From the NCBI GenBank assembly GCA_021296095.1, contig JAGWBB010000011.1:1-40435 (forward strand): a stretch of 40,435 bases of DNA, given 5' to 3'. How positions within the stretch are numbered: the first letter of the stretch is position 1; each line of letters begins with the position of its first letter. Under the pieces are notes generated by a model that was given only the letters and a program-made list of their open reading frames with translations, was not told where the DNA came from and ran no database searches. Made by a program: the position numbers and the translations under genes. The DNA is from Desulfurellaceae bacterium. Its GTDB lineage: Bacteria; Desulfobacterota; Binatia; Bin18. This document shows positions 218-39,191 of the stretch, piece by piece.

Positions 218-1501
218 TCAGTGCAGCGTCGGGAGTAATCCCAACTCCTCGCGCAGGACTCGAACCAGGGCGATATTATCGCTGTGGCCGGTCCGGTCGG
301 CCGTCACCCTGGCCCGCAGCGGCCGGCCCAACAGGTAGAGGTCGCCAATCAGGTCCAGGACTTTGTGACGGGCGAGTTCGTCGTCAAAACGCAGCGGGGG
401 GTTAATCACGCCCTGGTCGCCGATCAAAATACAGTTGTCCAGCCGTCCACCGTTGGCCAGGCCCATCTGTTCCAGGGCCTGGACTTCTTTCAAAAATCCG
501 AAGGTGCGGGCCGGGGCAATTTCGGCACGAAAGCTCTCGGTCCCGTGGTGGATATAGTCGTGTTCCTGACGGCCAACCGGCGGGGGATACTCGAGAATAT
601 AACGGACCGAGAAATGGTCGGCCGGCTCAATGCGCAGCCTCTTACCGCCCCCCTCGTCGCCGACCTGATACGGCCGGTCAACCGCAATGACCTCAACCGT
701 CTCGTCCTGCTCGACGACGCCGGCTTCGTCGAGCAGCTGACAGAACTCACGCGCCGAGCCGTCCAGAATCGGAATCTCATCCTGCATCTTGACCATCAGA
801 TTGCTGATGCCATAGCCGTGCAGGGCCGCCATCAGATGCTCAATCGTCCGCGCCACAGCACCGTCTCGGTACAGACTCGTCGCATAGCCGGTCGAGCCGA
901 CATACTCGACCGAGGCCGGAATCACCACGTCGGTCGATAAAGAGCCGAACACAATCCCGCTACCGGGCGGCAGCGGCTGCAGGATCACCCCGGTGCGCAC
1001 TCCGGAGTGCAAGCCCTGACCGCGCAGCACGACACTGTGCCCAATGGTCCGGGCCTGAACACACTCGCGCGGCCGCACGGCAGCCTGACGGCTGGGTGGC
1101 AGGTCGCGGGATTCTCCCCGGGCCGCAGAACCAGCCGCCTCACGCCCGATCGCCCGATACACCGAGCGCAGCAGGGCTTCGAGCGAGAACGGTTTTTCAA
1201 TAAAATCGGTCGCCCCCAGCTTGGTTGCCCGGACGGCCGTCTCAATCGTCCCGTGGCCGGAAATGACGATGACCGGCAACTCCGGTCGCTGGGTTTTCAG
1301 CTGTTCGAGCAGACTGATCCCGTCGAGCTGTGGCATCCAGATATCGAGAATGACCAGCCGGGGCTGACGGGTACGCACGAGGTCGAGGATCTGGGTCCCG
1401 TCACCAGTGTCCAAGACCTGAAATCCCTCATCGCCCAGAATGCCGCGCAGGGTGGTTCGAATCTGTTCCTCATCATCCACCACCAGAATGGTCTCCTGCA
1501 T
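218..1501 (-). CDS. lpxC: Response-regulator receiver domain fused to LpxC (UDP-3-O-acyl-GlcNAc deacetylase)
   Basis: One 427-residue ORF with two domains. Residues 1-120 form a CheY-type receiver: acidic pair D9/D10, phosphoacceptor D53 in LVILDIWMP, switch serine S81 and K103 in EKPF. After a polar linker (about 121-148), residues 150-427 are a complete LpxC, the zinc deacetylase of the committed step of lipid A synthesis in the cytoplasm. Catalytic and zinc residues are present: E221-H222 (EHLMAALHG), H379 and D383 (HKVLD), and H406 (TGHSDN). The H379-H406 spacing of 27 equals the E. coli H238-H265 spacing. The ATG has an AGGAGG Shine-Dalgarno sequence and lies 9 bases after the NtrY-like kinase stop. 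No ATG, GTG or TTG start was seen at the native LpxC N-terminus, so translation appears to make the fusion. Phosphorylation by the neighbouring kinase is an inference. Confidence 0.93.
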   Translation of the reverse strand: MQETILVVDDEEQIRTTLRGILGDEGFQVLDTGDGTQILDLVRTRQPRLVILDIWMPQLDGISLLEQLKTQRPELPVIVISGHGTIETAVRATKLGATDFIEKPFSLEALLRSVYRAIGREAAGSAARGESRDLPPSRQAAVRPRECVQARTIGHSVVLRGQGLHSGVRTGVILQPLPPGSGIVFGSLSTDVVIPASVEYVGSTGYATSLYRDGAVARTIEHLMAALHGYGISNLMVKMQDEIPILDGSAREFCQLLDEAGVVEQDETVEVIAVDRPYQVGDEGGGKRLRIEPADHFSVRYILEYPPPVGRQEHDYIHHGTESFRAEIAPARTFGFLKEVQALEQMGLANGGRLDNCILIGDQGVINPPLRFDDELARHKVLDLIGDLYLLGRPLRARVTADRTGHSDNIALVRVLREELGLLPTLH

Positions 1502-1510
1502 ACCGTCCTC

Positions 1511-3820
1511 CTAGCTGTACTGGCCGTTTGCACTCGGCTGTGGCGACGCGGCCCGGTCCGGGCTCAGCTGCTCCCGCCGGCGAACCGGCAGCTCAATGAT
1601 AAAGCGACTGCCGTGGGGGAGGTTGTCCCGCACGCGCAAGAACGCCTGATGGTCGGCCACCACCGTGGCCGCTATCGCCAAGCCCAGACCCGTGCCGTCT
1701 TTTTTGGTCGAAAAATAGGGCTCGAACAAACGGTCCTTGATCTCGGCCGGAATACCGCAGCCGGTGTCAGTCACCTCAAGTCGGACGATGCCGCCCGAGC
1801 GGAAAAAGCGGGTCACCACCTCAATGCGCCCCGGGGCACCATTGGCGCCGCCGTCAAGGGGTGTCCGACAGGCGGCCACGGCGTTGTCCAGCAGGTTGCG
1901 AATCATCCGTTTGATACCCTCGCGGTCGAGGTCCAACAGCGGCAGCTCAGGGTCGTGGGCCAGGCTGAACTCCAGGTCCCGGTGCGCCTCGGAAAAGATG
2001 ACAATCACCTCCTGGATCAGGGCGTTCAGGTTCTCCGGCCGGTACTCGGCGGTCGGCAGGCGGGCAAAGGTCGAAAACTCGTTGACCAGCCGTTTAATCG
2101 TATCGACCTCATGGGCAATGCTCTGGACACACTCGTCAAAAACGCCCTGGGAATCGGACAGCTGCGGCGCAAAGCGGCGGTGCAGGCGCTGAGCGGCGAG
2201 CTGAATCGGAGTCAGCGGATTTTTGATTTCGTGGGCAATCCGGTAGGCGACCTCGCGCCAGGCTTCCATGCGTTCAACCCGGATGATCTGCGTCACATCC
2301 TCAAAAAAGCACACTCCGCCCAACACATCCCCACGCTCATCGGTCAGCGGCGCGGCCGTCACCAGCAGGGTCAGGGCGTGGTCATCGCGCAGCAGGCGCA
2401 GCTGGGCCTGGTTTTTGGGACCGCTCTCATCCCCGACGTTCGGGCTGTCGAGCGATTCGCTCAGCAGGGCGCTGACCATCCGTCGCAGTTCGGCGAACTC
2501 GTCCGCCCCGAACACCTCATGGTAGTCTCGCTCAACGGCCCGCTCGGCCGCTACCCCGAGCAGCTGTTCGGCAGCCCGATTGACCGTCGAAACCAGGCCG
2601 GTCCGGTCCAGGGAGACGACCCCGGTGTTCATATTGGCCAACAGGATTTCCATGTAGCGCCGGCGGGCTTCCAACTCGTGGTGGCTCTGCTGCAGGTCGG
2701 TCGTCATCCGGTTGAAGGCGGCCACCAGGGTCCCGACCTCGTCCTCGCCCTCGCCCTCAAGGCGATGGGTCCAGTGGCCTTGGGCCACCTCACGAGTTGC
2801 CGCAGCCAGCTGTTGAAGGGGAACAGCGATCTTCTTCGACAAAAAGAAACCCAGCCACACCGCAGCAAAGACCGCGACCAGGGTGACCAGGAACATGGTG
2901 ATCAAATAGTTATTCTTCATCGGCTGCTTGAGAATCCGCAGCTGCCGATACTCGCGGAAGGCGTCCGCCACCTGGCTTCCCTGGCGGGCCACATGGGGCG
3001 GCACCGCGTATTCGACGACGACCGCTCCGGCCACCTGCCCGCGGTCCAGGATGGGCACACCGCCACGCACGACCTCGGTCTGGCCCAGGAAATAGGTCTG
3101 GCGGACGGCGGTACTGCGGAATACCCGCTCAAGCAGTTCGGCGTCCATGCCGCCGTCCCCACTCAGCGCGCGGTCCGATCCCGAGGCGCTGGCCACCAGC
3201 TGCCGCTGGGGATCGAAGACCAGAATCCGGCCCAGCTCAAAGCGCTGACGGGTCTGCTCGAGCAGCGCCACCAGCGCCTGACCGTGCCCGGCGGTCACCT
3301 CCTGAGCCGCCACCTCGGTGGCCAAGCCGCGGGCGTGGAACAGGGCCTCGTCGGCCAAATGGTCGTAGAAGGCATCGACAACGCTGAGCGCTCCGCCCAG
3401 CGAGTTTTCGATCTCGCTGGAAAACCAGTTGTCGATGGACCGGTTGACAAAACCGATGCCGATTAACAACAGCAGAATGGCCGGCAGCAGGGAAATCGCC
3501 ACAAAGGCCAGGACCAGCTGAAAGCGTAAATACGCGCCCGGCAGCTTCTGCCGTCGCTCGTAAAAGAGTTTGACCAGATTGCGACCGACCAGAAAGACGA
3601 GCAGGACGAGCAGGATGATATTGAGGTTGATCAGCAGCACAAAGACAATGTTGCTGCTCAGGCTGTGGGTATTGCTGAGCTGCGGCAGTGGGCTCTGAAA
3701 GACGGCAAACAGCCCGACGCCAAGAGCGGCGATCAGAATCAGCACACCTTCCCAGCGCCGCCGGCGTTTGGCCTGCTCGGACTCTGGGGGCGGGGAAGCG
3801 GACGACGGTCGCGTGTCCAT
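1511..3820 (-). CDS. NtrY-like transmembrane sensor histidine kinase
   Basis: A kinase of about 769 residues. Three hydrophobic segments lie in the first ~130 residues and a fourth (YLITMFLVTLVAVFAAVWLG) ends the extracytoplasmic sensor region. It is followed by HAMP (KKIAVPLQQLAAATREVAQG), a PAS domain (ILLANMNTGVVSLDRTG), HisKA with phosphoacceptor H530 in AHEIKNPLTPIQLAAQRL, and HATPase with N box (NLLDNAVAA) and G boxes (DTGCGIP, GTGLGLAIAA). The HEIKNPLTP motif and layout are typical of NtrY. ATG 3820 is chosen because AGGTGA sits five bases upstream; a GTG at 3829 is in frame. The next gene downstream encodes a receiver fused to LpxC instead of an NtrX, and is its obvious candidate partner. 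The signal sensed is unknown. Confidence 0.9.
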   Translation of the reverse strand: MDTRPSSASPPPESEQAKRRRRWEGVLILIAALGVGLFAVFQSPLPQLSNTHSLSSNIVFVLLINLNIILLVLLVFLVGRNLVKLFYERRQKLPGAYLRFQLVLAFVAISLLPAILLLLIGIGFVNRSIDNWFSSEIENSLGGALSVVDAFYDHLADEALFHARGLATEVAAQEVTAGHGQALVALLEQTRQRFELGRILVFDPQRQLVASASGSDRALSGDGGMDAELLERVFRSTAVRQTYFLGQTEVVRGGVPILDRGQVAGAVVVEYAVPPHVARQGSQVADAFREYRQLRILKQPMKNNYLITMFLVTLVAVFAAVWLGFFLSKKIAVPLQQLAAATREVAQGHWTHRLEGEGEDEVGTLVAAFNRMTTDLQQSHHELEARRRYMEILLANMNTGVVSLDRTGLVSTVNRAAEQLLGVAAERAVERDYHEVFGADEFAELRRMVSALLSESLDSPNVGDESGPKNQAQLRLLRDDHALTLLVTAAPLTDERGDVLGGVCFFEDVTQIIRVERMEAWREVAYRIAHEIKNPLTPIQLAAQRLHRRFAPQLSDSQGVFDECVQSIAHEVDTIKRLVNEFSTFARLPTAEYRPENLNALIQEVIVIFSEAHRDLEFSLAHDPELPLLDLDREGIKRMIRNLLDNAVAACRTPLDGGANGAPGRIEVVTRFFRSGGIVRLEVTDTGCGIPAEIKDRLFEPYFSTKKDGTGLGLAIAATVVADHQAFLRVRDNLPHGSRFIIELPVRRREQLSPDRAASPQPSANGQYS

Positions 3821-3849
3821 AGGTCTCACCTGCTCGACGGTCGCGGGGT

Positions 3850-4932
3850 TCAGAACAGCCGGTCCTGACCCGAGCCGTCTGTCCCGCCGCCGGGGGCTCT
3901 ATCAAAATGGGTATAGGCTTTCAGGGTCGCCAGCCGCCCACGGGGGGTGCGCTGCAGATAGCCCTCCTGGAGCAGATACGGCTCGTACACGTCTTCAATC
4001 GTATTCTTCTCTTCGCCGATAGCCGCCGCGATCGTTTCGATCCCGACCGGGCCACCCTGAAACTTGTCGATAATCGTCAGCAGGACAGTCCGGTCCATTT
4101 TGTCAAAACCGACCTCGTCAACCTCCAGCAGCTGCAGCGCGGCCTGGGCCACCTCCAGGCTGACCACTGAGTCGGCCTTGACCTGGGCGAAGTCGCGGAC
4201 CCGCCGCAGCAGACGATTGGCAATCCGCGGCGTGCCGCGCGACCGGCGCGCAATTTCGGCTACCCCGTCGGGGTCAATCGTCATATGCAGGATAGCGGCC
4301 GAACGACGAATAATCTGGTCCAACTCGGACGCCCGGTAAAAGTCGAGGCGAAAGGTCGAGCCAAAACGGTCGCGCAGGGGCGAGGTCAGCAGGCCCGAGC
4401 GGGTCGTCGCGCCGACCAGGGTAAAGTGCTTAAGCGACAGCTTGACGGTGCGGGCCGAGGGCCCTTGGCCGACCACCAGGTCGAGCTGAAAATCCTCCAT
4501 GGCCGGATACAGAAATTCTTCGATCACCCGGTTCAGGCGGTGAATTTCGTCGATGAACAGCACGTCCCCGTCTTCGAGATTGGTCAGGATGGCCGCCAGA
4601 TCGCCCGGCCGTTCAATCACCGGCCCGGTCGTGGCCCGAATATCCACCCCCATTTCTCGGGCAATGATATGGGCCATTGAGGTCTTGCCCAGCCCTGGAG
4701 GACCGTAAAACAGCAGGTGATCGAGCACGTCACCACGTTGTTTGGCCGCCTGAATGGCGATGCGCAGGTTCTGTTTGGTGCTCTCCTGGCCGATGTAGTC
4801 GTCCAGGCTACGGGGACGCAGCGAGCCCTCAAGCCGCGCTTCGCCGCCGCTCTCGACCGCCTCGCCGCCGTCTTCCGGCGACGGGCTCAGATCGAGCACG
4901 GGGTCTCTGGATGATGCTTTTGGCTCGCTCAC
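3850..4932 (-). CDS. ruvB: Holliday junction branch-migration helicase RuvB
   Basis: A 360-residue protein of normal RuvB length apart from a slightly long polar N-terminus. Motifs: [11 protein letters not shown], Walker [10 protein letters not shown], Walker B DEIHRLNR, sensor 1 GATTRSG, and the C-terminal winged helix with [19 protein letters not shown]. RuvB is the hexameric AAA+ motor that drives branch migration of Holliday junctions with RuvA. Its ATG overlaps the ruvA stop by four bases (ATGA), indicating translational coupling. It is the last repair gene of yebC-ruvC-ruvA-ruvB, and the kinase gene follows within about 30 bases on the same strand. Confidence 0.97.
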
Positions 4933-5519
4933 GCGCTCAGACTCCGTAGTGACTCCTGGATAATATCGGTCAGCGTCGAGCGGCCATCCCGCAGGGCGCG
5001 CTGGACCGCTTTTTCGGCTTGGGACTGACGATAGCCCAGGTTGACCAGGGCCGACACCGCATCCGTGGAAACCGGAATCTGGGCACCGGGAACGGCCGCG
5101 CCGTCACTGCCGGGAAGCGTCCCGACCTTTTCCCGCAGCTCGACGACCAAACGCTCGGCCGTTCTTCGCCCGACCCCCGGAACCGCCAGCAGCCGGGTCA
5201 CATCCCCGGCGCGCAGGGCGTCCTCAAGATCCTCAACCGGAATGCCGGATAAAATGCTGACGGCCAGTCGGGGGCCGATCCCGCTCACCCCCTTGAGCAG
5301 CACGAAACCGGCCTTTTCCTGCTCATCGAGAAAGCCGAACAGCTGCAAGACATCTTCACGTACATGGGTATGGATATGCAGGCTGACCGGCTGGCCTCGC
5401 TCGGGCAGGCGATAGAACGTCTGGAGCGAGACAAACACCTGATAGCCCACCCCCCCGACATCGACGATCAGGTGATCCGGCGCTTTGTCTTCGACTCTTC
5501 CGCTCAGACGCGCAATCAT
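4929..5519 (-). CDS. ruvA: Holliday junction DNA-binding protein RuvA
   Basis: A 196-residue protein from ATG 5519 ([20 protein letters not shown]), the normal RuvA start. A longer reading frame begins upstream, but its first 55 codons lie over the end of ruvC and do not resemble RuvA. Domains: OB fold with GGVGYQV; tandem helix-hairpin-helix motifs ([16 protein letters not shown] and [16 protein letters not shown]); and the C-terminal domain III ([16 protein letters not shown]) that contacts RuvB. RuvA tetramers bind four-way junctions and load RuvB. The ruvC stop lies only two bases upstream of this start. Confidence 0.96.
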
Positions 5520-5521
5520 CG

Positions 5522-6154
5522 TCAGCCCCGGCCTCGTGTCGCCCCCCCGACCACGCGCTCGGGAGCCAAACTGTCGACAGACACCTGGCGCCATGAGCGC
5601 GGACCGCTTTTGCGCTGACCAGAGGTAATCGCGGCCAGCTGGGCCTGCATTTGGGTCGCCAGCGGTGAGGTATGACAGTGGCACACCGCTGCGGCCAAGG
5701 CGTCCGTGGCGTCCGGGCTGGTCGGCAAAGCCTGTGTATTGCCCAACAGAGCAAACACCGCTTTCTGCACCTGGGTCTTATCCGCCCGGCCATAACCGAC
5801 CACCGCAGCCTTGATCTCGGTCGGATTGTACTCGGCAATGTGCAGCCCGGCCTGCGCGGCGGCCAGCAGGATCACGCCCCGCGCTTCGCCGAGCCGAAAC
5901 GCGCTCTGGACATTGTAGGCCACAAACGCTTTTTCCAGACTCAGGGTATGAGGCGTCCATTGCTCGATCACCTCGGCGATGCCGGCGTGCACCACCCGCA
6001 GCCGTTCCGGCAGGGAGGAGAAGCCGGCGGTCGAGATTACGCCACCGGCACAAAAAGCGAGGTTCCGGCCTCGGCGGTCAACAATGCCCCAGCCCGTCTG
6101 CCGCGTCCCGGGGTCAACCCCGAGCACCCGTTGTGCTGTTTCCGTGCGTCCCAC
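5522..6154 (-). CDS. ruvC: Crossover junction endodeoxyribonuclease RuvC
   Basis: RuvC resolves Holliday junctions as a dimer with an RNase H-like fold. Acidic catalytic residues are visible: D in VLGVDPGTRQTGWG, E in LSLEKAF, and the C-terminal SPDATDALAAA pair. The ORF is open to an ATG at 6184, but a strong AGGAGG six bases before GTG 6154 supports a 210-residue protein starting VGRTETAQRVLGVD, close to the family N-terminus. The C-terminus (about 35 residues after TSPLATQ) is longer and more basic than in E. coli RuvC. It lies between yebC and ruvA, the common order. Confidence 0.94.
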   Translation of the reverse strand: MGRTETAQRVLGVDPGTRQTGWGIVDRRGRNLAFCAGGVISTAGFSSLPERLRVVHAGIAEVIEQWTPHTLSLEKAFVAYNVQSAFRLGEARGVILLAAAQAGLHIAEYNPTEIKAAVVGYGRADKTQVQKAVFALLGNTQALPTSPDATDALAAAVCHCHTSPLATQMQAQLAAITSGQRKSGPRSWRQVSVDSLAPERVVGGATRGRG

Positions 6155-6231
6155 CTGTCTCCTCCTCATCGAACCCGTCAGCATGCCGATGCGGTGACGC
6201 CGACGAGTGTTGTCCCCGCCTCTTTTCGTGA

Positions 6232-6984
6232 TCAGGCCGCGCTCAAGCGCTCGAAGTCGTCTTCAGAGAACTCACAGTTAGCGGCCACACTCTGGATATC
6301 GTCGTGTTCCTGTAACACATCAAGCAGTTTATACGCCTGCTCGGCCTCTTTCCCGGACAGGCTGACCGTGTTTTGGGGGATGAGCGTCACCTCAGCCGAC
6401 CGCATGGCCAGATCGGCCTGCTCAAGCGCGGTGTGCACCGCGTCAAAATCCTCCGGGCTGGTCACCACCTCGAACGCGCCCTCGCCGCCACTCACGTCTT
6501 CCGCCCCGGCTTCGAGGACGATCTCCATCAGTTGGTCTTCGTCAACCTGCTCGGCTTCAACCGAAATAATGCCCTTCTTATCAAACATCCAGGCAACCGA
6601 ATTCGAGGTGCCCAGGCTACCGCCATGCTTGGTCAGGAAATGGCGAATTTCGGCCACCGTGCGGTTTTTGTTATCGGTCAGGACTTGCAGCATGATCGCC
6701 ACCCCGCCCGGCCCATGGCCCTCGTACACCACCTCCTCATAATGGACGCCTTCGAGTTCGCCAGCGCCTTTTTTGATCGCCCGCTCAATTGTGTCGTTCG
6801 GCATGCTGGCCGCCTTGGCCGCAGCCAGAGCCGTCCGCAGACGTGGGTTGGCCGACACATCACTGCCGCCGGTGCGGGCTGAAATAGTCAGGTCTTTAAT
6901 CAGTTTGTTGAACAGTTTGCCCCGGCGGGCATCCTTGACCGCCTTTTTGTGCTTGATCGTACTCCATTTAGAGTGGCCTGACAT
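6232..6984 (-). CDS. yebC: YebC/PmpR/TACO1 family protein
   Basis: A 250-residue protein with the family start MSGHSKWSTIKHKKAVKDAR and the typical three-domain layout. Recognisable blocks are KLFNKLIKDLTISAR, NPRLRTALAAAKAASMPND, YEGHGPGGVAIMLQVLTDNKNRT and a C-terminal LLDVLQEHDDIQSVAANCEF. YebC proteins are long annotated as transcriptional regulators, and some members are reported to assist ribosomes during elongation. A GGAGG lies in the leader (gcaggagggccattcccATG). It heads the ruvCAB block, a widespread arrangement. Confidence 0.95.
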   Translation of the reverse strand: MSGHSKWSTIKHKKAVKDARRGKLFNKLIKDLTISARTGGSDVSANPRLRTALAAAKAASMPNDTIERAIKKGAGELEGVHYEEVVYEGHGPGGVAIMLQVLTDNKNRTVAEIRHFLTKHGGSLGTSNSVAWMFDKKGIISVEAEQVDEDQLMEIVLEAGAEDVSGGEGAFEVVTSPEDFDAVHTALEQADLAMRSAEVTLIPQNTVSLSGKEAEQAYKLLDVLQEHDDIQSVAANCEFSEDDFERLSAA

Positions 6985-9054: not shown

Positions 9055-11700
9055 ATGAAACGAGTCGGAATATGGTTAGGGGGGTTGGTGGGAGTCCTAC
9101 TGTTTGTGGGAAGCTCTGCGCCGGCAGGAGCCCAGGAGGCGCAGCCGCAGGACGAGGTCGTCGGCCTCGACGAGCTGCGAGTCGTCGGCTCCCGGCTACC
9201 CGGTCGCTCGGCCGCAGATTCGCCTGTGCCGGTCGATATCATCGACGGTGACAGTTTCCAGAACTACGGCGTGCGAGATCTCAACAACCTGCTGGCCGCC
9301 ACTATTCCGTCCTACAACGTCACCCAACACGCCATCGGCGATGCCAACGCGCTGGTCCGCCCGGCCAAGCTGCGCGGCCTGCCGCCGGACTCGACCCTGG
9401 TGCTGATCAACGGCAAACGCCGCCACCGCTCGTCGGCGATCAGCATCTTCACCTTTGGCCAGGCCCAGGGGGCGCACGGCGCCGACATTCGTTCGATCCC
9501 GGCCATCGCCCTCAAACGCGTCGAGGTACTGCGTGACGGGGCGGGCGCCCAGTACGGCTCCGACGCGGTAGCCGGGGTCATGAACTTCGTGCTGCGTGAC
9601 GCGCCCGAGGGCGGCACGCTCGAAGCTCGCTGGGGCCAGTACTACCAGGGCGACGGCGACTCGGTGAGCACGGCGGCCAACATTGGGCTGCCGCTGACCG
9701 ACGCCGGTTTCGCCAATTTCAGCTTCGAGTTCGTCAACTCTGACTCAACCGACCGCAGCTATGCGCTCGACTCGGAGAAGTCGCTGAGAGGAGCGGGTCT
9801 GCCCGTCAAATCTCCGGCGATGGTCTGGGGCGCGGCGGACGTGCCGTACGATTACAAATTCTTCGGCAACCTCGGCCTCGACCTCGGCGACCACCACCAC
9901 GCCTACGCCTTCGGCAACTGGGCCGAACGCGAGATCCTGGACTCGTGGTATTTCCGCTCCCCAACTGCTCAGTATGGGTCTCCGGCCTCGATAGGCGGGG
10001 TCTATGAAGATAGTGGGAACGTGCTGGTCGCCGACCTGTCACCTGACGGACGATCCGGCAACTGTCCAACCATCCCGCGGAGCGAGTTTGCGCAAAACGG
10101 CATGGCCGCGCTGGCCCCGCTGCAGGGCAACCCGAACTGCTACGCGCTCGCCCAGAATTTGTCGGGGGGCTTCACCCCGCGGATGCGCGGCAATGTGGAA
10201 GACTGGAGTATCGCCTTCGGCCTGCGCGGGACACTGCGGAGCGCCTCCCTGCTGCTCGACGGCTGGAACTACGACATGAGCGCCGTGTTCGGTCAGCACC
10301 GCACGACATACTTCATCTGGAACACCGTCAACCCGCAACTCCTGCGCCTCAGAGAGGACATGCCGACAGAATACTTTGGACGCGCCTACGAGGAGCGGGA
10401 CAAGACCTTCAACCTCGACCTCTCCCGGCTGTTCGATACCGACCTCTTCTACTCTCCGCTGAACGTGGCCTTCGGGCTGGAGTACCGCGAGGAAGAGTAC
10501 GAGATCGAATCCGGCGAGAAAAACGGCTGGTGCATCGACGACCAGGGAGAATGCGACGGACAAGCGAAGGAATATGGTCTCGCGGCCCAGGGGTTCGACA
10601 TCGGCGGCCAAGCCTATCCCGGCATCCGCCCGGAGAATGCCGTGGAGGCCGAACGGGGCAGCTTCGGTGCCTATCTCGACCTCGAAGCCGACGTCATCGA
10701 GAGCGTACTGCTCAACGCCGCCGGCCGCTTCGAACACCATGAAGGCATCGGCGAGTCTTTGGACGGCAAGCTGGCCGGCCGCTGGGACGTGATCGCGGAC
10801 TATCTGGCGCTGCGCGGCTCGCTGGGCACCGGCTTTCGCGCCCCGACCGTGGGGCAGGTCCTCTACCGGGATACGACCTTCGGCCTTGACGAACACGGTA
10901 TCCTCACCGAGCAGCCCACGCTGCCGGCGAGCGACCCGATTGCGCAACAAAAGGGGGCCAAGCCGCTCACGCCCGAGACCTCCTTCTCTTTTTCCATCGG
11001 CACGGTGCTGACCCTTGGCGAGCTGTCCGTCACCCTGGACTACTACAACATAGAAGTCAGAAACCGGATTGGGCTGACCGCCCCCCAAAGCATCACCGCT
11101 CAAGATATCACCGCCCTGGCGGCTCGGGGCGTCGACAATCGGGGCGTGACGACCGTCAAGTTCTTTGCCAACGCGTTCGAGACCTACACCCAGGGCATCG
11201 ATCTGGTGGCAACCTACCCTCTGGAACTGTTCGGCGGCAACATCGGCACGACTCTGTTGACCTTCGCTGGCAACTGGAACGACACCAAACTCAATCTTGA
11301 TTCGATTGACGCGCAGGTCATCGATTCGGTGCGCAAAGTCCAGGTTGAAGAGATTGAGCCGGAATTCCGCTTCTCGCTGATGGCGGACCACACCTGGGGC
11401 CCATGGCGGCTCCTCGCCCGGCTGCACTACTACGACCAATTCACCGAGCCGTACCAGGATTATTTTATCAGCCCCCCCCTCCGCCCCAAGGCCCGGGCAT
11501 TACTCGACCTGGAAGCGTCATACACGTTCGGCTTCGGGATGACGGTGGCGGTCGGTGCGGACAATCTGCTCGACACCTATCCGACCAAGGTCGGACGGCT
11601 GCATCGCGATGCATATGATGCCGGCCAGAAGTATCCGGTCGCCTCACCGTATGGCTACAACGGCGGCTTCTACTACTTCAGGGCGTCGTACGCATTCTGA
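9055..11700 (+). CDS. TonB-dependent outer-membrane receptor (copy 1, intact)
   Basis: An 881-residue protein with a signal peptide (MKRVGIWLGGLVGVLLFVGS, cleavage near APAGA-QEA). A TonB-box-like segment (DELRVVGSR) follows, then a plug domain (about 45-180: PVDIIDGDSFQNYG, LRGLPPDSTLVLINGKR, VEVLRDGAGAQYGSDAVAGV) and a 22-strand-type barrel ending in the aromatic C-terminus YYFRASYAF recognised by the BAM machinery. Such receptors import siderophores, cobalamin, sugars or other large ligands using TonB energy. The ligand is not evident, and no ABC transporter or TonB gene lies next to it. It is a tandem paralogue of the next gene and probably shares transcription with it (gap about 100 bases). 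Confidence 0.93.
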   Translation: MKRVGIWLGGLVGVLLFVGSSAPAGAQEAQPQDEVVGLDELRVVGSRLPGRSAADSPVPVDIIDGDSFQNYGVRDLNNLLAATIPSYNVTQHAIGDANALVRPAKLRGLPPDSTLVLINGKRRHRSSAISIFTFGQAQGAHGADIRSIPAIALKRVEVLRDGAGAQYGSDAVAGVMNFVLRDAPEGGTLEARWGQYYQGDGDSVSTAANIGLPLTDAGFANFSFEFVNSDSTDRSYALDSEKSLRGAGLPVKSPAMVWGAADVPYDYKFFGNLGLDLGDHHHAYAFGNWAEREILDSWYFRSPTAQYGSPASIGGVYEDSGNVLVADLSPDGRSGNCPTIPRSEFAQNGMAALAPLQGNPNCYALAQNLSGGFTPRMRGNVEDWSIAFGLRGTLRSASLLLDGWNYDMSAVFGQHRTTYFIWNTVNPQLLRLREDMPTEYFGRAYEERDKTFNLDLSRLFDTDLFYSPLNVAFGLEYREEEYEIESGEKNGWCIDDQGECDGQAKEYGLAAQGFDIGGQAYPGIRPENAVEAERGSFGAYLDLEADVIESVLLNAAGRFEHHEGIGESLDGKLAGRWDVIADYLALRGSLGTGFRAPTVGQVLYRDTTFGLDEHGILTEQPTLPASDPIAQQKGAKPLTPETSFSFSIGTVLTLGELSVTLDYYNIEVRNRIGLTAPQSITAQDITALAARGVDNRGVTTVKFFANAFETYTQGIDLVATYPLELFGGNIGTTLLTFAGNWNDTKLNLDSIDAQVIDSVRKVQVEEIEPEFRFSLMADHTWGPWRLLARLHYYDQFTEPYQDYFISPPLRPKARALLDLEASYTFGFGMTVAVGADNLLDTYPTKVGRLHRDAYDAGQKYPVASPYGYNGGFYYFRASYAF

Positions 11701-11800
11701 AACAAAGAGTGAACGTGTCCTCCAAGAGATATCAGCTGTTGACACATTGACTCTTGCTGGCGCTCACCCACCAGGCGCGATGAACAGGCGAGGAAAACGC

Positions 11801-13678
11801 ATGAGGAAACTCGGGCAATCCGGTCTCCTGGTGTCACTCCTGGTCTTGCTGATCTCAGCACCGGCCGGGGCGCAGCAGGCCGCCCAGGCCGACAGGGTCG
11901 TCGGCCTTGAAGAAATCCGGGTAGTTGGCTCCCGGTCGGCGGGCCGCTCGGCCGCAGATTCGCCCGTACCGGTAGACGTGATTGATGGCGACAGCCTCAA
12001 GCACTACGGCACCACGGATATGAACGACCTGCTGTCGGCGACCGTCCCCTCCTACAAGGTCTTTCAGTACGGCATCGGTGTTGAGGCCGCCCTGGTCCGC
12101 CCGGCCAAGCTGCGCGGCCTGCCGCCCGACTCGACCCTGGTGCTGGTCAACGGCAAACGCCGCCACCGTTCCTCGGCGATTACCCGCTGGAGTTACGGTT
12201 TGGCCAGCGGTTCGCATGGGACGGATATCGCCTCCATCCCGTCCATCGCCCTCAAACGCGTCGAAGTCCTGCGCGACGGCGCCGGCGCCCAGTATGGCTC
12301 CGACGCGGTGGCCGGAGTGCTGAATTTCGTGCTGCGCGACGCGCCCGAGGGCGGCAGCCTGGAGACCAACCTGGGCCAGTACTACCACGGCGACGGCGAC
12401 CGGCTGAATGTCGCGGGCAACCTCGGCCTGCCGCTGACCGAGGCCGGCTTTGCCAACTTCAGCTTCGAGTTCACCAACGCCGATTCGACCAACCGCAGCG
12501 TGCAGCGCGACGACGCCCGGCGCATGATCGAGCACGGCAACGCCTTTATCCGCAGATCCGCAGCCCAGCCCTGGGGCGCACCGGACGTGACCTACGACTA
12601 TAAATTCTTCGGCAACCTCGGCCTCGACCTCGGCACCGACCACCAGCTGTACGCCTTCGGCAACTACGCCGAGCGCGAGATTGAAGACACCTTCTACTGG
12701 CGTAATCCGGCCAGTTTTCCCGGCGTGTTCGCCCAGGGCGACGAGCTACTGGTCGCCGACCTGTCTGCGGACGGGATGTCCGGCAACTGCCCGACGATCA
12801 CGGCCGGCGATTATGTTGAGCAGGGTCCGGCCGCGCTGGCCCCGCTAATGGGCCAGGACGACTGCTACGCCCTGGCCCAGGCATTCCCGGGCGGTTTCAC
12901 CCCCCGGTTCCGGGGCGTGGTCAACGACTGGAGTCTCGCCTTCGGCCTGCGTGGGGAGCTGCGCAGCACCTATGCCTTAAAGAGTAGACGTGCCAACACC
13001 TTTGATATATTGGCGGACACGTTTGCTCTTTTGCTGGACGGCTGGCACTACGACCTGAGCGCCGGCTTCGGTCAGAACAGCATGGACACCCACCTCAGGA
13101 ACAGCGTGAATCCGAATCTGGTCCGCTTCAGGGCCGCGATTCCGACCCGCTACCGAACCCGCAGGTACGAGGAGCGGGACAAGATCTTCAACCTCGACCT
13201 GTCCCGGCCGTTCGACCTCGGCCTGTTCGCCTCTCCGCTGAACGTGGCCGTCGGCCTGGAGTACCGGGAAGAAACCTTTGAGAGCGGAACCGGGGAACCG
13301 AATTCCTATTTCCGTGACGAGGTGCTGGCCCGACAGGGCTTCGCGGTCGCAGTCTCCGGCTACCCGGGCACCTCGCCCGAGGAGGCGACCGAGGCCAGCC
13401 GGGACAGTTTTGGCGCGTATCTCGACCTGGAGGCCGATGTCGTGGCCGATGTGTTGCTCACCGCTGCGGGTCGGTTTGAGCACCATGCCGGCGTCGGGGA
13501 ATCGCTCAATGGCAAGCTGGCCGCCCGCTGGACTCCCCCCATCCCCCCCCTGCTAGGGGGGGCATGGGGGGGTTGGCGCTGCGCGGCTCCATCGGGACCA
13601 ACTTTCGGGCGCCAACCGTCGGGCAGGCCAACTATCGGAACATCACCTCGAGCCTCAACGCCGAGACCGGCGAACTGA
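11801..13678 (+). CDS. TonB-dependent receptor copy 2, N-terminal part (broken by frameshift)
   Basis: The start ATG 11801 (MRKLGQSGLLVSLLVLLISA) has a GAGG about eight bases upstream; an in-frame ATG exists at 11780. A signal peptide (to APAGAQQ), TonB-box-like region, full plug (LRGLPPDSTLVLVNGKR, VEVLRDGAGAQYGSDAVAGV) and the first two thirds of the barrel match copy 1 closely. After NGKLAARW (about 13531) the frame enters a G/C homopolymer palindrome and continues in the wrong phase (TPPIPPLLGGAWGG...) to a stop at 13678. The native phase resumes in the overlapping ORF starting at 13564. Relative to copy 1, 41 bases replace 18, a net shift of +2. As read, the product lacks the last barrel strands and should not assemble. 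It also carries a lower-GC insertion of about 20 residues near 12970-13030. Confidence 0.85.
   Translation: MRKLGQSGLLVSLLVLLISAPAGAQQAAQADRVVGLEEIRVVGSRSAGRSAADSPVPVDVIDGDSLKHYGTTDMNDLLSATVPSYKVFQYGIGVEAALVRPAKLRGLPPDSTLVLVNGKRRHRSSAITRWSYGLASGSHGTDIASIPSIALKRVEVLRDGAGAQYGSDAVAGVLNFVLRDAPEGGSLETNLGQYYHGDGDRLNVAGNLGLPLTEAGFANFSFEFTNADSTNRSVQRDDARRMIEHGNAFIRRSAAQPWGAPDVTYDYKFFGNLGLDLGTDHQLYAFGNYAEREIEDTFYWRNPASFPGVFAQGDELLVADLSADGMSGNCPTITAGDYVEQGPAALAPLMGQDDCYALAQAFPGGFTPRFRGVVNDWSLAFGLRGELRSTYALKSRRANTFDILADTFALLLDGWHYDLSAGFGQNSMDTHLRNSVNPNLVRFRAAIPTRYRTRRYEERDKIFNLDLSRPFDLGLFASPLNVAVGLEYREETFESGTGEPNSYFRDEVLARQGFAVAVSGYPGTSPEEATEASRDSFGAYLDLEADVVADVLLTAAGRFEHHAGVGESLNGKLAARWTPPIPPLLGGAWGGWRCAAPSGPTFGRQPSGRPTIGTSPRASTPRPAN
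13532..13574. repeat. G/C-homopolymer palindrome disrupting TonB receptor copy 2
   Basis: The segment holds four homopolymer tracts arranged as an imperfect inverted repeat: C6-AT-C8, a short TGCTA centre, then G7-CAT-G7. The arms pair almost perfectly (ACTCCCCCCAT and ATGGGGGGGTT at the ends). It replaces the six codons (DVIADY) found here in copy 1 and shifts the frame. It looks like a small mobile palindrome or a slippage tract. Adding one base in any tract gives a 42-base insert with no stop, restoring a full-length receptor. Confidence 0.75.
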
Positions 13679-14938: not shown

Positions 14939-15911
14939 GATTGGTCACCCGCAGCTCTGGATTCCAACATCAACCTTAGAAGAAATTCTCAACCGGGCAC
15001 TGAAAGACGTTTCCCTCCATGGGCTGCCATTACGCACTCGCTCGAAGGTGGTGAAAGAATACATCTGCCGGGCACTCGGCTATCCGGTGTCACCCCGCTT
15101 CAAAAGGACTCGGCCGCGTTTTCCAGGACAGCTTTTTGACACCTACATCCAGAAATCCAACAATCTGCAAGTCTGGAACGAGGAGCTTGCTCCCACACGC
15201 CGGTATGTCATCGTTCGAGTTGGGCCGGGAGACGTCATCACGAGAGTAAAAGTCGTCACCGGCACCACGCTGGCGCGACTGGACACGACGGGGAGGCTGA
15301 CCCACAAGTACCAGGCGCAGCTGATCCCAGGAACGCAAAACGCGGAACTCGTCACCGCCGAAGACACGGGGCTGCTCCAGTTCATCGTCCAGCCTGGCGT
15401 CGATCTGGGGTCCGTTGCCAGTCCTACTGACCAGCCTCAGGCAGGCCAGATCTTGCCGATTGGCGAGATTTTTGAGCGGCTGAAATATCTTGTCGGAGAG
15501 GGCTTCATAGATGCTGGTTCTGACCAGGAGCGGAATCGCGGCGCGGCTTTACACCGGCTGGTGTGCCAGCGCCTCGGCTACACCGACTACCGGGACGACG
15601 GGCAGTTTCCAGACGTGCGCCACCAGCTTCTTGAAGTGAAGCTGCAAACCTCACCGACAATCGACCTCGGATTGGTGCGCCCCGATAACACAGAAGCTCT
15701 CGATATCCCGCACATTGAGGGCCAGCAGATTCGCCATTGCGATGTGCGCTATGCGTTGCTCTCTGCGCGTAGCGACGGAAAATACGTAACGCTGACGCAC
15801 CTGTTCCTCTCCACTGGCGAGAGGTTTTTCACCCGCTTCCCCCAGTTTCAGGGCAAGGTCCTGAACAGGAAGCTTCAGATTCCTCTACCGACTGACTTTT
15901 TCAAGGCGTAA
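14859..15911 (+). CDS. Probable type II restriction endonuclease (PD-(D/E)xK type)
   Basis: A 350-residue protein that I cannot place in a named endonuclease family. The C-terminal third carries a plausible nuclease core: FPDVRHQLLEVKLQ, with the order D...E-V-K expected of PD-(D/E)xK enzymes, preceded by an acidic helix region (DQERNRGAALHRLVCQRLGY). The N-terminal ~190 residues may recognise DNA. Identification rests on its position between a C-protein-like gene (overlapping by 80 bases) and a convergent adenine methyltransferase, plus the motif. Its last 27 bases overlap the end of the methyltransferase gene on the other strand. The recognition site is unknown. Confidence 0.75.
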   Translation: MARNNPDLERYIAVIQLSGLSIYDPIEIGHPQLWIPTSTLEEILNRALKDVSLHGLPLRTRSKVVKEYICRALGYPVSPRFKRTRPRFPGQLFDTYIQKSNNLQVWNEELAPTRRYVIVRVGPGDVITRVKVVTGTTLARLDTTGRLTHKYQAQLIPGTQNAELVTAEDTGLLQFIVQPGVDLGSVASPTDQPQAGQILPIGEIFERLKYLVGEGFIDAGSDQERNRGAALHRLVCQRLGYTDYRDDGQFPDVRHQLLEVKLQTSPTIDLGLVRPDNTEALDIPHIEGQQIRHCDVRYALLSARSDGKYVTLTHLFLSTGERFFTRFPQFQGKVLNRKLQIPLPTDFFKA

Positions 15912-17630
15912 ACCGAACGCTTCCCAGACCATGGCGTCCAGCTCCTTTTGGAGGCCATGGGCTTCAGGAGAAGGAATACACCGGTATAGGTGCTTGGCTT
16001 TCGCCACAATGGCACGACCGGGTTCGCTATACGGGTCGGGCAGGGGAAAACGTTCAACATACTGGGTGATGAAGCGGCGGCGACCAGCGTACAGCTTATT
16101 GTGGAAACAATGATCGTAGAAGTGTTCGATGAACGTGGAGTTGCCGACGGCGGCGGCCAGCCAGAGCAGGTCTGTGGGCACAGAGTCCTGGCAGGTGAGC
16201 CAATAGCAGTCACCATTGACCACGGAACCTTCCTGGTCAATCCAGAATGTAGGCTCTTGGGCAATATCGCGGAACACCAGCTTGGGATCAGTCCACGCCT
16301 CAGGATCCTGGGGGACCCAGATTTCATACCATTCACGTCCCGCCTCAATGAGGTATTGACGCCCTTCAAGGGTGGCCCGGTGAGTCTCAAGGTAGGCTCG
16401 GCTGCGAGGATATTTTGCCAGCACTACGGCCTGACGCCGGCCCTGCACAACCTCATGCGGATAGAGGATGCTGTTTTGCCGGTCGGGTATGAGGGGCTTG
16501 AAACGACGCGCCAGGTGATGGGTGGCAAGAGGTTTGAGCAGCTCAGGCCGCTCTGCCTTGGACATGTCCTGCCAGTCTTTGCGGATGAACACCTTGTCGG
16601 CGCAGGTCTTGACGCCAACCCGGATTTTTCCAATATCGCGAAACGTGCCCCACGTCCGCGCCTCGACTGTAGCCAGCCAGGTGTCAATGGCCTGTGTGGT
16701 CAGACGCCAGACGCCGTCAGCAGCACCGTTCGTGTCCAACCTGCCATGTTGCACCTGAAAGTGTCGTCCATCGGCAAGTTCAATGACGCCTTCCCTGTCC
16801 AGAGCGCTCAGCGGGTCGGTCATCCGTTCGTGGGCCGGGGCAGAAGTCTGGTAGATCGACGTGAATTCCGGGGAGGGTGCCTTGCCGCCGTGTGTTCCTT
16901 CGGCAACCAGAACGGCGGGCAGGACAGCAGCATCAAACAGCTTCGTGTCTCCCAAATCCCAGATATGGGAGATATGGAAGCGTTGCAGAAGAACCCGCCG
17001 GACAGAAGCACCGGACTTCGTCGTCATGAAACGGTTGGAAACAACGATCCCGGCCAGCCCTCTGGGGGCGAGCACCTGAGATATGCCGAGGATAAAAGCG
17101 TAGTAGAGATCCACGCGACCGGATAGTCCGAACCGCCGAGACAGGAGCCGCGCCCGTGTAGTCCCCATAACCTGGGTACGGACGTAGGGAGGATTGGCAA
17201 TAATCAGATCGTAAGCCTCTGGAACCGTGCGACAAAAGAGGTTGCCATTCTCACCATCCCCCCACTGTTCAAGAACAAAATCCAGAAAGTTTGTTGGCTC
17301 GAAATGCAGTGACACGCTGGGGAATTGCTGCGTAATGCTTCGCCTGGCGGAGTCAAGCGCCTCGGTGTTGGTCTCAAAACCGAAGGCTTCGATCATCAGG
17401 TTTGGCTGGTCGGCCAAGCGTTCGAGCAGACTGAGAAGAAGCTGTCCGTGACCGACAGCGGGGTCAAGGATACGCAGGGGCCGGTCAGCGGGCAGTGTTT
17501 CGGCGGTTTGGACAACCTGCCGGGCAATAAAATCGGCGAGAATTTTGGGCGTATAGGTAACGCCGTCAGCCTTTTCTTGGGTGACGGCATCATAACGCTT
17601 CGTCAAGCCTGGCTGGTCAAGTGTTGCCAT
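15885..17630 (-). CDS. N6-adenine DNA methyltransferase of the restriction-modification system
   Basis: A 581-residue protein. The N-terminal half is a Rossmann methyltransferase: motif X region (KADGVTYTPKILADFIARQV), SAM-binding motif I (LDPAVGHGQLLLSLLERL), motif II (FGFETNTEAL) and catalytic motif IV NPPY (DLIIANPPYVRTQVM). The X-I-IV order is that of gamma-class N6-adenine enzymes such as M.PstI/M.BsuBI or Eco57I-like proteins. The C-terminal half (from about 330) is likely the target recognition domain. It protects host DNA from the convergent endonuclease. The stop lies inside the endonuclease gene, a 27-base tail-to-tail overlap. The methylated sequence cannot be read from the protein. 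Confidence 0.9.
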   Translation of the reverse strand: MATLDQPGLTKRYDAVTQEKADGVTYTPKILADFIARQVVQTAETLPADRPLRILDPAVGHGQLLLSLLERLADQPNLMIEAFGFETNTEALDSARRSITQQFPSVSLHFEPTNFLDFVLEQWGDGENGNLFCRTVPEAYDLIIANPPYVRTQVMGTTRARLLSRRFGLSGRVDLYYAFILGISQVLAPRGLAGIVVSNRFMTTKSGASVRRVLLQRFHISHIWDLGDTKLFDAAVLPAVLVAEGTHGGKAPSPEFTSIYQTSAPAHERMTDPLSALDREGVIELADGRHFQVQHGRLDTNGAADGVWRLTTQAIDTWLATVEARTWGTFRDIGKIRVGVKTCADKVFIRKDWQDMSKAERPELLKPLATHHLARRFKPLIPDRQNSILYPHEVVQGRRQAVVLAKYPRSRAYLETHRATLEGRQYLIEAGREWYEIWVPQDPEAWTDPKLVFRDIAQEPTFWIDQEGSVVNGDCYWLTCQDSVPTDLLWLAAAVGNSTFIEHFYDHCFHNKLYAGRRRFITQYVERFPLPDPYSEPGRAIVAKAKHLYRCIPSPEAHGLQKELDAMVWEAFGLRLEKVSR

Positions 17631-37352: not shown

Positions 37353-39191
37353 ATGAAGAAAATGGACCATAAGATCCGTTTTAATATCTGGTATGTATTC
37401 ATCGCCCTGTGGGGGGTGATTCTGCTGCACAACCTGTGGCTCCAGGCTACCCGGATCGAACAGATTCCCTACAGCCAGTTCCAGGCTTACCTTGACGAGG
37501 ATCTGATCGAAGAAATCCGGATCACCAACAACTATATCCAGGGCACGCTGCGGCAGCCCCTGGAAGGCCAGCCGCAGCAGTTTGTGACCATTCGGGTCGA
37601 ACCCGACCTGGCCGACAAACTGGCCTCCAGCGGGATCCGCTTCGCCGGAGAGATTGAGACGACCTTTCTGCGCGATTTCCTGTCGTGGATTGTCCCGGTC
37701 CTGCTGTTTGTCGGCATCTGGCTGTTCTTCATGCGCCGCTTTGCCCAAAAACAAGGCTTGGGCGGCGGCTTCATGTCGATCGGCAAGAGCAAGGCCAAGG
37801 TCTACATGGAACAGGATGTCAAGGTCACCTTCAACGACGTGGCCGGTGTGGACGAGGCCAAGACCGAACTCCAGGAGGTGATTGCCTTTCTGAAGACACC
37901 CGAAAAATTCGCCCGGCTGGGTGGCAAAATTCCCAAGGGCATCCTGCTGGTCGGTCCGCCGGGGACGGGCAAGACCCTGCTGGCAAAAGCCGTGGCCGGT
38001 GAGGCCAGCGTGCCGTTCTTTTCGATCAGCGGCTCAGAGTTCGTGGAGATGTTCGTCGGGGTGGGCGCAGCCCGGGTGCGCGACCTGTTTGTCCAGGCCA
38101 AGGAAAAGGCGCCGTGTATTATTTTTGTCGACGAGCTGGACGCCCTGGGCAAGGCGCGGGGCATGGGGCCGGTCTCCCACGAAGAGCGCGAACAGACCCT
38201 CAACCAGCTGCTGGTCGAAATGGACGGCTTCGATCAGCGCACTGGGGTGATCCTGATGGCCGCCACCAACCGGCCGGAAATTCTGGACCAGGCGCTGTTG
38301 CGGGCCGGCCGCTTTGATCGCCACGTGGTGGTTGACCGGCCGGACAAGATCGGCCGGCTGGCGATTCTCAAGGTCCACTCCCGCAATGTACAGCTTGACC
38401 CGGACGCCGACCTTGATGTGGTCGCAGCCATGACCCCCGGCTTTGCCGGGGCCGACCTGGCCAACATCATCAACGAAGCCGCGCTGCTGGCGGTCCGTAT
38501 GAGCAAGGACTCGGTCGGCCTGCCCGAGCTGCAGGAGGCGGTTGAGCGGGTGATTGCCGGCCTGGAAAAAAAGAACCGGGTCCTCAACCAAACCGAAAAA
38601 GAACGCGTCGCCCACCACGAGATCGGCCACGCCCTGGTCTCCCTGTCGCTGCCGGGCAGCGACCAGGTTCAGAAAATCTCGATCATCCCGCGCGGCGTGG
38701 CCGCCCTGGGCTATACCTTGCAGCTGCCGACCGAAGACCGCTTTGTGATCACCAAATCCGAGCTGGAGAACAAAATCGCCGTATACCTGGGCGGCCGGGT
38801 CGCCGAGGAGATCATCTACCAGGAGATCTCGACCGGTGCGCGGGACGATCTGCTCAAAGCCACCGACATCGCCAAGAACATGATCAAAGCCTACGGCATG
38901 AGCGAGCAGCTGGGCCAGATCAGCTTCGACCAAGACCAGCAGCCGATGTTTCTGCAAAACGGCCAGAGCCCCGGCCCGGGCGACTACAGCGAGGAAACCG
39001 CGCGGGCGATTGACACCGAAATCCGGCGCATCATCGACGCCCAGTACGCACGGGTAACCGCCCTGCTGTGCGCCAAGACCCAGATCTTGAAGGACGCGGC
39101 GCGAGCCCTGCTGGACAAGGAAACCCTCACCGGCGAGGAGCTACGGGCGATTGCCTTCCCGGCCGGCCAGCCCGACACGGACGCCGCCTAG
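37353..39191 (+). CDS. ftsH: ATP-dependent zinc metalloprotease FtsH
   Basis: A 612-residue membrane AAA+ protease. TM1 ([19 protein letters not shown]), a periplasmic FtsH_ext domain (about 35-105), TM2 ([19 protein letters not shown]), Walker A GPPGTGKT (201-208), Walker [36 protein letters not shown], zinc motif HEIGH (422-426) and a downstream [22 protein letters not shown]. It degrades membrane and some soluble proteins, notably LpxC in E. coli. It lies only 31 bases after cobQ. The SRH and pore motifs look intact, so it should be active. Confidence 0.96.

Follow-up and report, generated by a model that had tools for sequence, protein, structure and literature searches.

An open reading frame on the minus strand of the window (the whole stretch of 40,435 nucleotides analysed here) encodes the deacetylase LpxC joined to a response regulator receiver domain, and both activities are predicted for its product. 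LpxC catalyses the committed step of lipid A synthesis and is both the chief point at which that pathway is regulated and an antibiotic target; it is known to be controlled by proteolysis, through protein partners and at the level of transcription. We consider it probable that the receiver derives from the transcription factor NtrX, that it is phosphorylated at residue D53 by a kinase, and that this alters the activity, stability or location of LpxC, the arrangement having arisen from a cluster in which lpxC adjoined ntrY and ntrX. It also appears somewhat likely that the committed enzyme has come under direct two-component control through capture of NtrX, and that this arrangement is now fixed in a class and in a phylum. 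If so, signals would pass from an envelope sensor to outer-membrane synthesis in a single step, through a receiver within LpxC, and expectations of how LpxC is regulated would change for Nitrospinota, for the window's class and for scattered Acidobacteriota.

The fusion gene occupies positions 218–1501 (minus strand), with 427 open codons and a product of 427 amino acids. The receiver domain (1160–1489, minus strand; residues 5–114) matches PF00072 with 108 bits and contains the phospho-acceptor D53, and the LpxC deacetylase domain (254–1051, minus strand; residues 151–416) matches PF03331 with 279 bits. Against the lpxC equivalog model TIGR00325 the protein scores 237 bits, above the cut-off of 187. 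In an AlphaFold2 model both domains are well folded; the LpxC part matches the structure of Aquifex LpxC with a TM-score (target) of 0.95, and Pseudomonas LpxC was also matched. The two domains are separated by a linker (1058–1141, minus strand; residues 121–148) that is variable in alignment and predicted to be disordered at residues 124–142, where pLDDT falls below 50. The receiver pocket, consisting of DD, D, S/T and K, is complete (D9, D10, D53, S81 and K103), and the LpxC fold retains its zinc ligands and catalytic residues (E221, H222, H379, K380, D383 and H406). The initial annotation had described an intact receiver and an intact LpxC in one reading frame; this observation is confirmed, and all ten residues that it named are present. 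It had also proposed a strong Shine-Dalgarno sequence, which is found as AGGAGG at 1507–1512 (minus strand), overlapping the stop codon of the kinase gene. As to its further statement that there is no internal start at the N-terminus of LpxC, a GTG at codon 142, just before the edge of the LpxC domain, is the sole ATG, GTG or TTG among residues 115–157, and it has no strong Shine-Dalgarno sequence.

The window is a complete contig from a 4.3 Mb draft assembly (185 contigs, 97% complete), which leaves room for the suggestion that an assembly or gene prediction error has merged two genes. In a sample of 98 genomes from the class, covering 16 families and 54 genera, a full-length fusion is present in 90, with 51–69% identity in other genera. 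The remaining genomes comprise two in which the fusion is cut by contig ends and six without any LpxC, and no unfused LpxC was found in the 98. Since the identical junction recurs in 90 of the 98 genomes, single-contig assemblies included, it is not an artefact; the frameshift or misjoin that had been named as a possible objection is refuted by this recurrence, and we give it practically no credence.

The fusion is spread over the class, Nitrospinota and scattered further lineages, which is wider than was seen at first. In a 198-genome sample of the window's phylum, 190 of them from outside the class, approximately 40 genomes outside the class carry it, a count made by match and reading frame length with a domain check on most. 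Of 60 Nitrospinota genomes, 54 encode an LpxC of the fused type, nearly always in a long reading frame with a receiver, and the 20 proteins read at full length are all fused. Four of 149 Acidobacteriota genomes are fused, and one of the four also has an unfused copy. Carriers include a Terriglobia, a Thermoanaerobaculales, a Nitrospinaceae and a Desulfomonile genome. Three genomes have both fused and unfused LpxC.

The gene upstream of the fusion (1511–3829, minus strand) encodes an NtrY-like sensor histidine kinase with NtrY_N, HAMP, PAS, HisKA and HATPase_c domains. Its earlier boundary at 3820 is an in-frame ATG, while the reading frame itself extends to 3829; the coordinates bear out the spacing of nine bases that had been given between kinase and fusion. 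The match to NtrY_N is narrow (PF19312, 23.7 bits against 23.2), while those to HAMP, PAS, HisKA and HATPase are clear. In a tree the kinase sits in the NtrY clade together with kinases of lpxC-ntrY-ntrX clusters, and the catalytic boxes (H533, N649 and the G box) are intact in 22 of 22 kinases checked. The fusion takes the position of NtrX after an NtrY-type kinase, as first described, with REC-LpxC as the partner gene. Further upstream lies a block of ruvB, ruvA, ruvC and yebC (3850–6984, minus strand), the order of which is conserved in class loci; yebC-ruvC-ruvA-ruvB-kinase-fusion was found in 12 of 15 class loci read at length.

The pairing with a kinase, for which a neighbourhood survey had been proposed, holds within the class but not beyond it. 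An NtrY-like kinase lies directly upstream of the fusion in 34 of 34 distinct class loci sampled, whereas outside the class a kinase adjoins just six of 43 fused genes, and so local pairing is not universal. The kinases that do adjoin fused genes belong to the NtrY clade, yet they do not form one group (three changes in the tree), which makes gene transfer or repeated rearrangement likely, beyond one vertical event. At one other fused locus, a gene for a DUF4390 protein (3640–4242 of that locus) lies directly upstream of the NtrY-like kinase.

A separate lpxC or ntrX elsewhere in the genome would have counted against the proposed reading, and neither was found; the window's genome contains no second LpxC and, judged by model scores and the receiver tree, no NtrX orthologue. 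It encodes four full-length REC-AAA regulators with an NtrX-like receiver, but these reach 308–371 bits, short of the NtrX cut-off of 600, and those that could be placed in the receiver tree fall outside the NtrX clade. These results bear on the direction in which information flows. LpxC binds a lipid A precursor and is linked to the receiver, and the sequence does not fix the direction, so LpxC might itself be the sensor, its substrate or product state altering the receiver and, through it, the kinase or a phosphate sink. Such reverse flow seems quite improbable, as no other NtrX-type output for the kinase was found in the window's genome and proteins derived from NtrX normally have the C-terminal domain as their output. 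Neither LpxB nor LpxK was matched in the draft genome (97% complete). LpxB is present in 78 of 80 genomes overall, including 24 of 24 other class genomes tested; its absence here is for this reason taken as an assembly gap rather than a loss, and the same count counters the idea that the lipid A pathway has been lost or that LpxC serves another pathway.

The origin of the fusion may be read from related gene clusters and from intermediate proteins. Clusters in which lpxC is unfused and adjoins ntrY-ntrX occur in Acidobacteriota, in Rokubacteria and in several genomes of deltaproteobacteria. The gene block of the window reappears, in the order yebC-ruvC-ruvA-ruvB-lpxC-ntrY-ntrX, in a Syntrophobacterales genome and in three genomes from the window's own phylum. 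The fused receivers nest in the NtrX clade, albeit with weak resolution, in agreement with a descent from NtrX. Against the NtrX model NF051870 the fusion scores 136 bits, below the cut-off of 600 and over residues 4–120 only; the receiver is consequently regarded as NtrX-derived, and the protein not as an NtrX. In the tree of LpxC domains, a single branch (SH-aLRT 99) separates all sampled fused forms from 43 unfused forms, which supports one fusion event without settling it.

A second architecture, REC-AAA+-LpxC, of about 680–800 residues, represents an intermediate state, in which the pocket of the receiver is still intact. Several of these proteins, when aligned with NtrX, display the remnant of a Fis-type HTH between AAA+ and LpxC. 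Their mean identity is 60% over the receiver and 61% over LpxC but 31% over the AAA+/HTH part, whereas NtrX proteins of unfused clusters retain 52% over that part. The GAFTGA motif, which contacts sigma-54, is present in none of 11 fused proteins against 14 of 17 unfused ones. It is likewise found in none of 19 long Nitrospinota forms, where the AAA+/HTH part has decayed in the same manner. Walker A is kept in the REC-AAA-LpxC proteins examined despite the loss of GAFTGA and of much AAA+ sequence, so ATP binding may persist, and the AAA+ domain may remain as an ATP-binding or assembly module. In an ancestral lpxC-ntrY-ntrX cluster, lpxC probably became attached to ntrX at its C-terminus; decay of the AAA+ and HTH domains would have followed, with outright loss in several lines, the window's class among them. 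The intermediates fit the capture of the NtrX transcription factor by lpxC and its decay to an enzyme-control module. If this is correct, the series lpxC-ntrY-ntrX, NtrX::LpxC and REC-LpxC would form an unusually complete record of the conversion of a transcription factor into such a module.

The loss of AAA+ and HTH with retention of the receiver argues that the receiver acts on LpxC; the DNA-binding function has gone, the phosphorylation site and, in the class, the kinase have been kept, and the receiver is best explained as acting on the output that remains. Because LpxC is built into an NtrX-derived signalling protein, an envelope sensor kinase probably controls outer-membrane synthesis directly, beyond gene expression. 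In this mechanism the NtrY-like kinase would phosphorylate D53, and the phosphorylated receiver would change the amount of active LpxC through an effect on the enzyme, its stability or its location. The sequences establish the fusion with its distribution, its intact sites, the gene order and the intermediates, whereas phosphotransfer, an effect on LpxC of either sign and the signal behind it are inferred. Against the mechanism stand the lack of an adjoining kinase at most fused genes outside the class, the failure of the adjoining kinases to form one clade, and the predicted disorder of the linker, in which a rigid allosteric path is not evident. Control by the receiver, as the initial annotation had inferred, is nevertheless plausible and in part supported, and the evolutionary evidence for it is good.

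Conservation of the receiver bears on whether phosphorylation matters at all. Across 79 distinct fused proteins of several phyla, D9, D10, D53, K103 and W55 are invariant, S or T occupies position 81 in 78, and no LpxC ligand varies in any protein long enough to include it. In 20 additional Nitrospinota proteins the pocket is unchanged save for two replacements of D9 by E, so that among the 99 sampled fused proteins D10, D53 and K103 are present in all and D9 in 97. Receiver domains are capable of dimerising and many fused genes have no neighbouring kinase, from which it might be argued that the receiver serves as a scaffold, structural or for dimerisation, with phosphorylation irrelevant to LpxC. 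A scaffold would be expected to lose its acid pocket, but the residues are retained in these proportions and the kinase has been kept beside the fusion at every class locus sampled; this makes the scaffold unlikely, and a phosphorylated receiver acting on LpxC is preferred.

One way in which such a receiver could act is through proteolysis, a special case of the main explanation: phosphorylation would make LpxC accessible to FtsH or another protease, or shield it, and turnover would still set the level of LpxC, now governed by the kinase. FtsH is the classical setter of LpxC, and an ftsH gene (FtsH_ext, AAA and Peptidase_M41 domains) lies on the fusion's own contig at 37353–39191 (plus strand), which speaks for this route. 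The disordered linker would suit a degradation switch. The fusion ends in LREELGLLPTLH, a C-terminus that differs from the E. coli degron. As a test of FtsH/LapB control, a search with a LapB zinc-ribbon model does not discriminate, since genomes that lack LapB are matched too and only some of the candidates were scored. As neither a degron nor an adaptor was identified, gating of proteolysis is regarded as a tentative, less probable form of receiver control.

Several known systems resemble parts of this arrangement. NtrYX shares with it an NtrY-like kinase, an NtrX-type receiver and the operon order, but known NtrX is a DNA-binding AAA+/HTH regulator, whereas the fusion proteins have lost these domains or keep them in decayed form, with LpxC as their output. 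NtrYX affects lpxC expression in R. sphaeroides and Caulobacter (PMC7240162, PMC12444477); in R. sphaeroides without NtrYX, lpxC mRNA rises 8.8-fold and LPS is increased (PMC7240162). The D. vulgaris response regulator DVU2934, which has lpxC as its single target (PMC3333781), is likewise dedicated to lpxC but acts on transcription, and LpxC there is a protein of its own. The operon orthologous to that of DVU2934 in S. fumaroxidans has lpxC immediately upstream of it (PMC3333781). Earlier literature ties NtrYX-type systems to lpxC transcription only. The initial annotation had compared the fusion with control by FtsH alone. The enterobacterial FtsH/LapB system is similar in that LpxC is controlled post-translationally, but it works by proteolysis through a C-terminal degron, without phosphorylation; transcriptional control of lpxC by NtrYX and DVU2934 provides closer precedents.

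Fusions of either partner are known as well. LpxC-FabZ (PRK13188) also places LpxC within a fusion protein, but there the partner is a biosynthetic FabZ-type dehydratase and not a signalling domain; the present protein scores 207 bits against that model, below its cut-off of 465, and a Pfam search found no FabZ domain in it. Response regulators with enzymatic output (CheB, GGDEF, EAL and others) resemble the fusion in joining a receiver to an enzyme, and the linking of receivers to metabolic enzymes is a recognised general theme (PMC5847659). No description of a receiver-LpxC fusion was found in the open-licence papers searched. Proteolysis, partners and transcription are the controls described in a review of lipid A regulation from 2025, whose section on LpxC of other organisms contains no receiver fusion and which does not use the word 'fusion' (PMC12444477).

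Elsewhere in the window, two overlapping reading frames of 881 and 707 amino acids (9055–13678, plus strand) each contain a TonB-dependent receptor plug domain and may be either tandem receptors or a gene duplication. An adenine methyltransferase of the Eco57I/TaqI type, possibly a restriction-modification enzyme, is encoded at 15885–17630 (minus strand).
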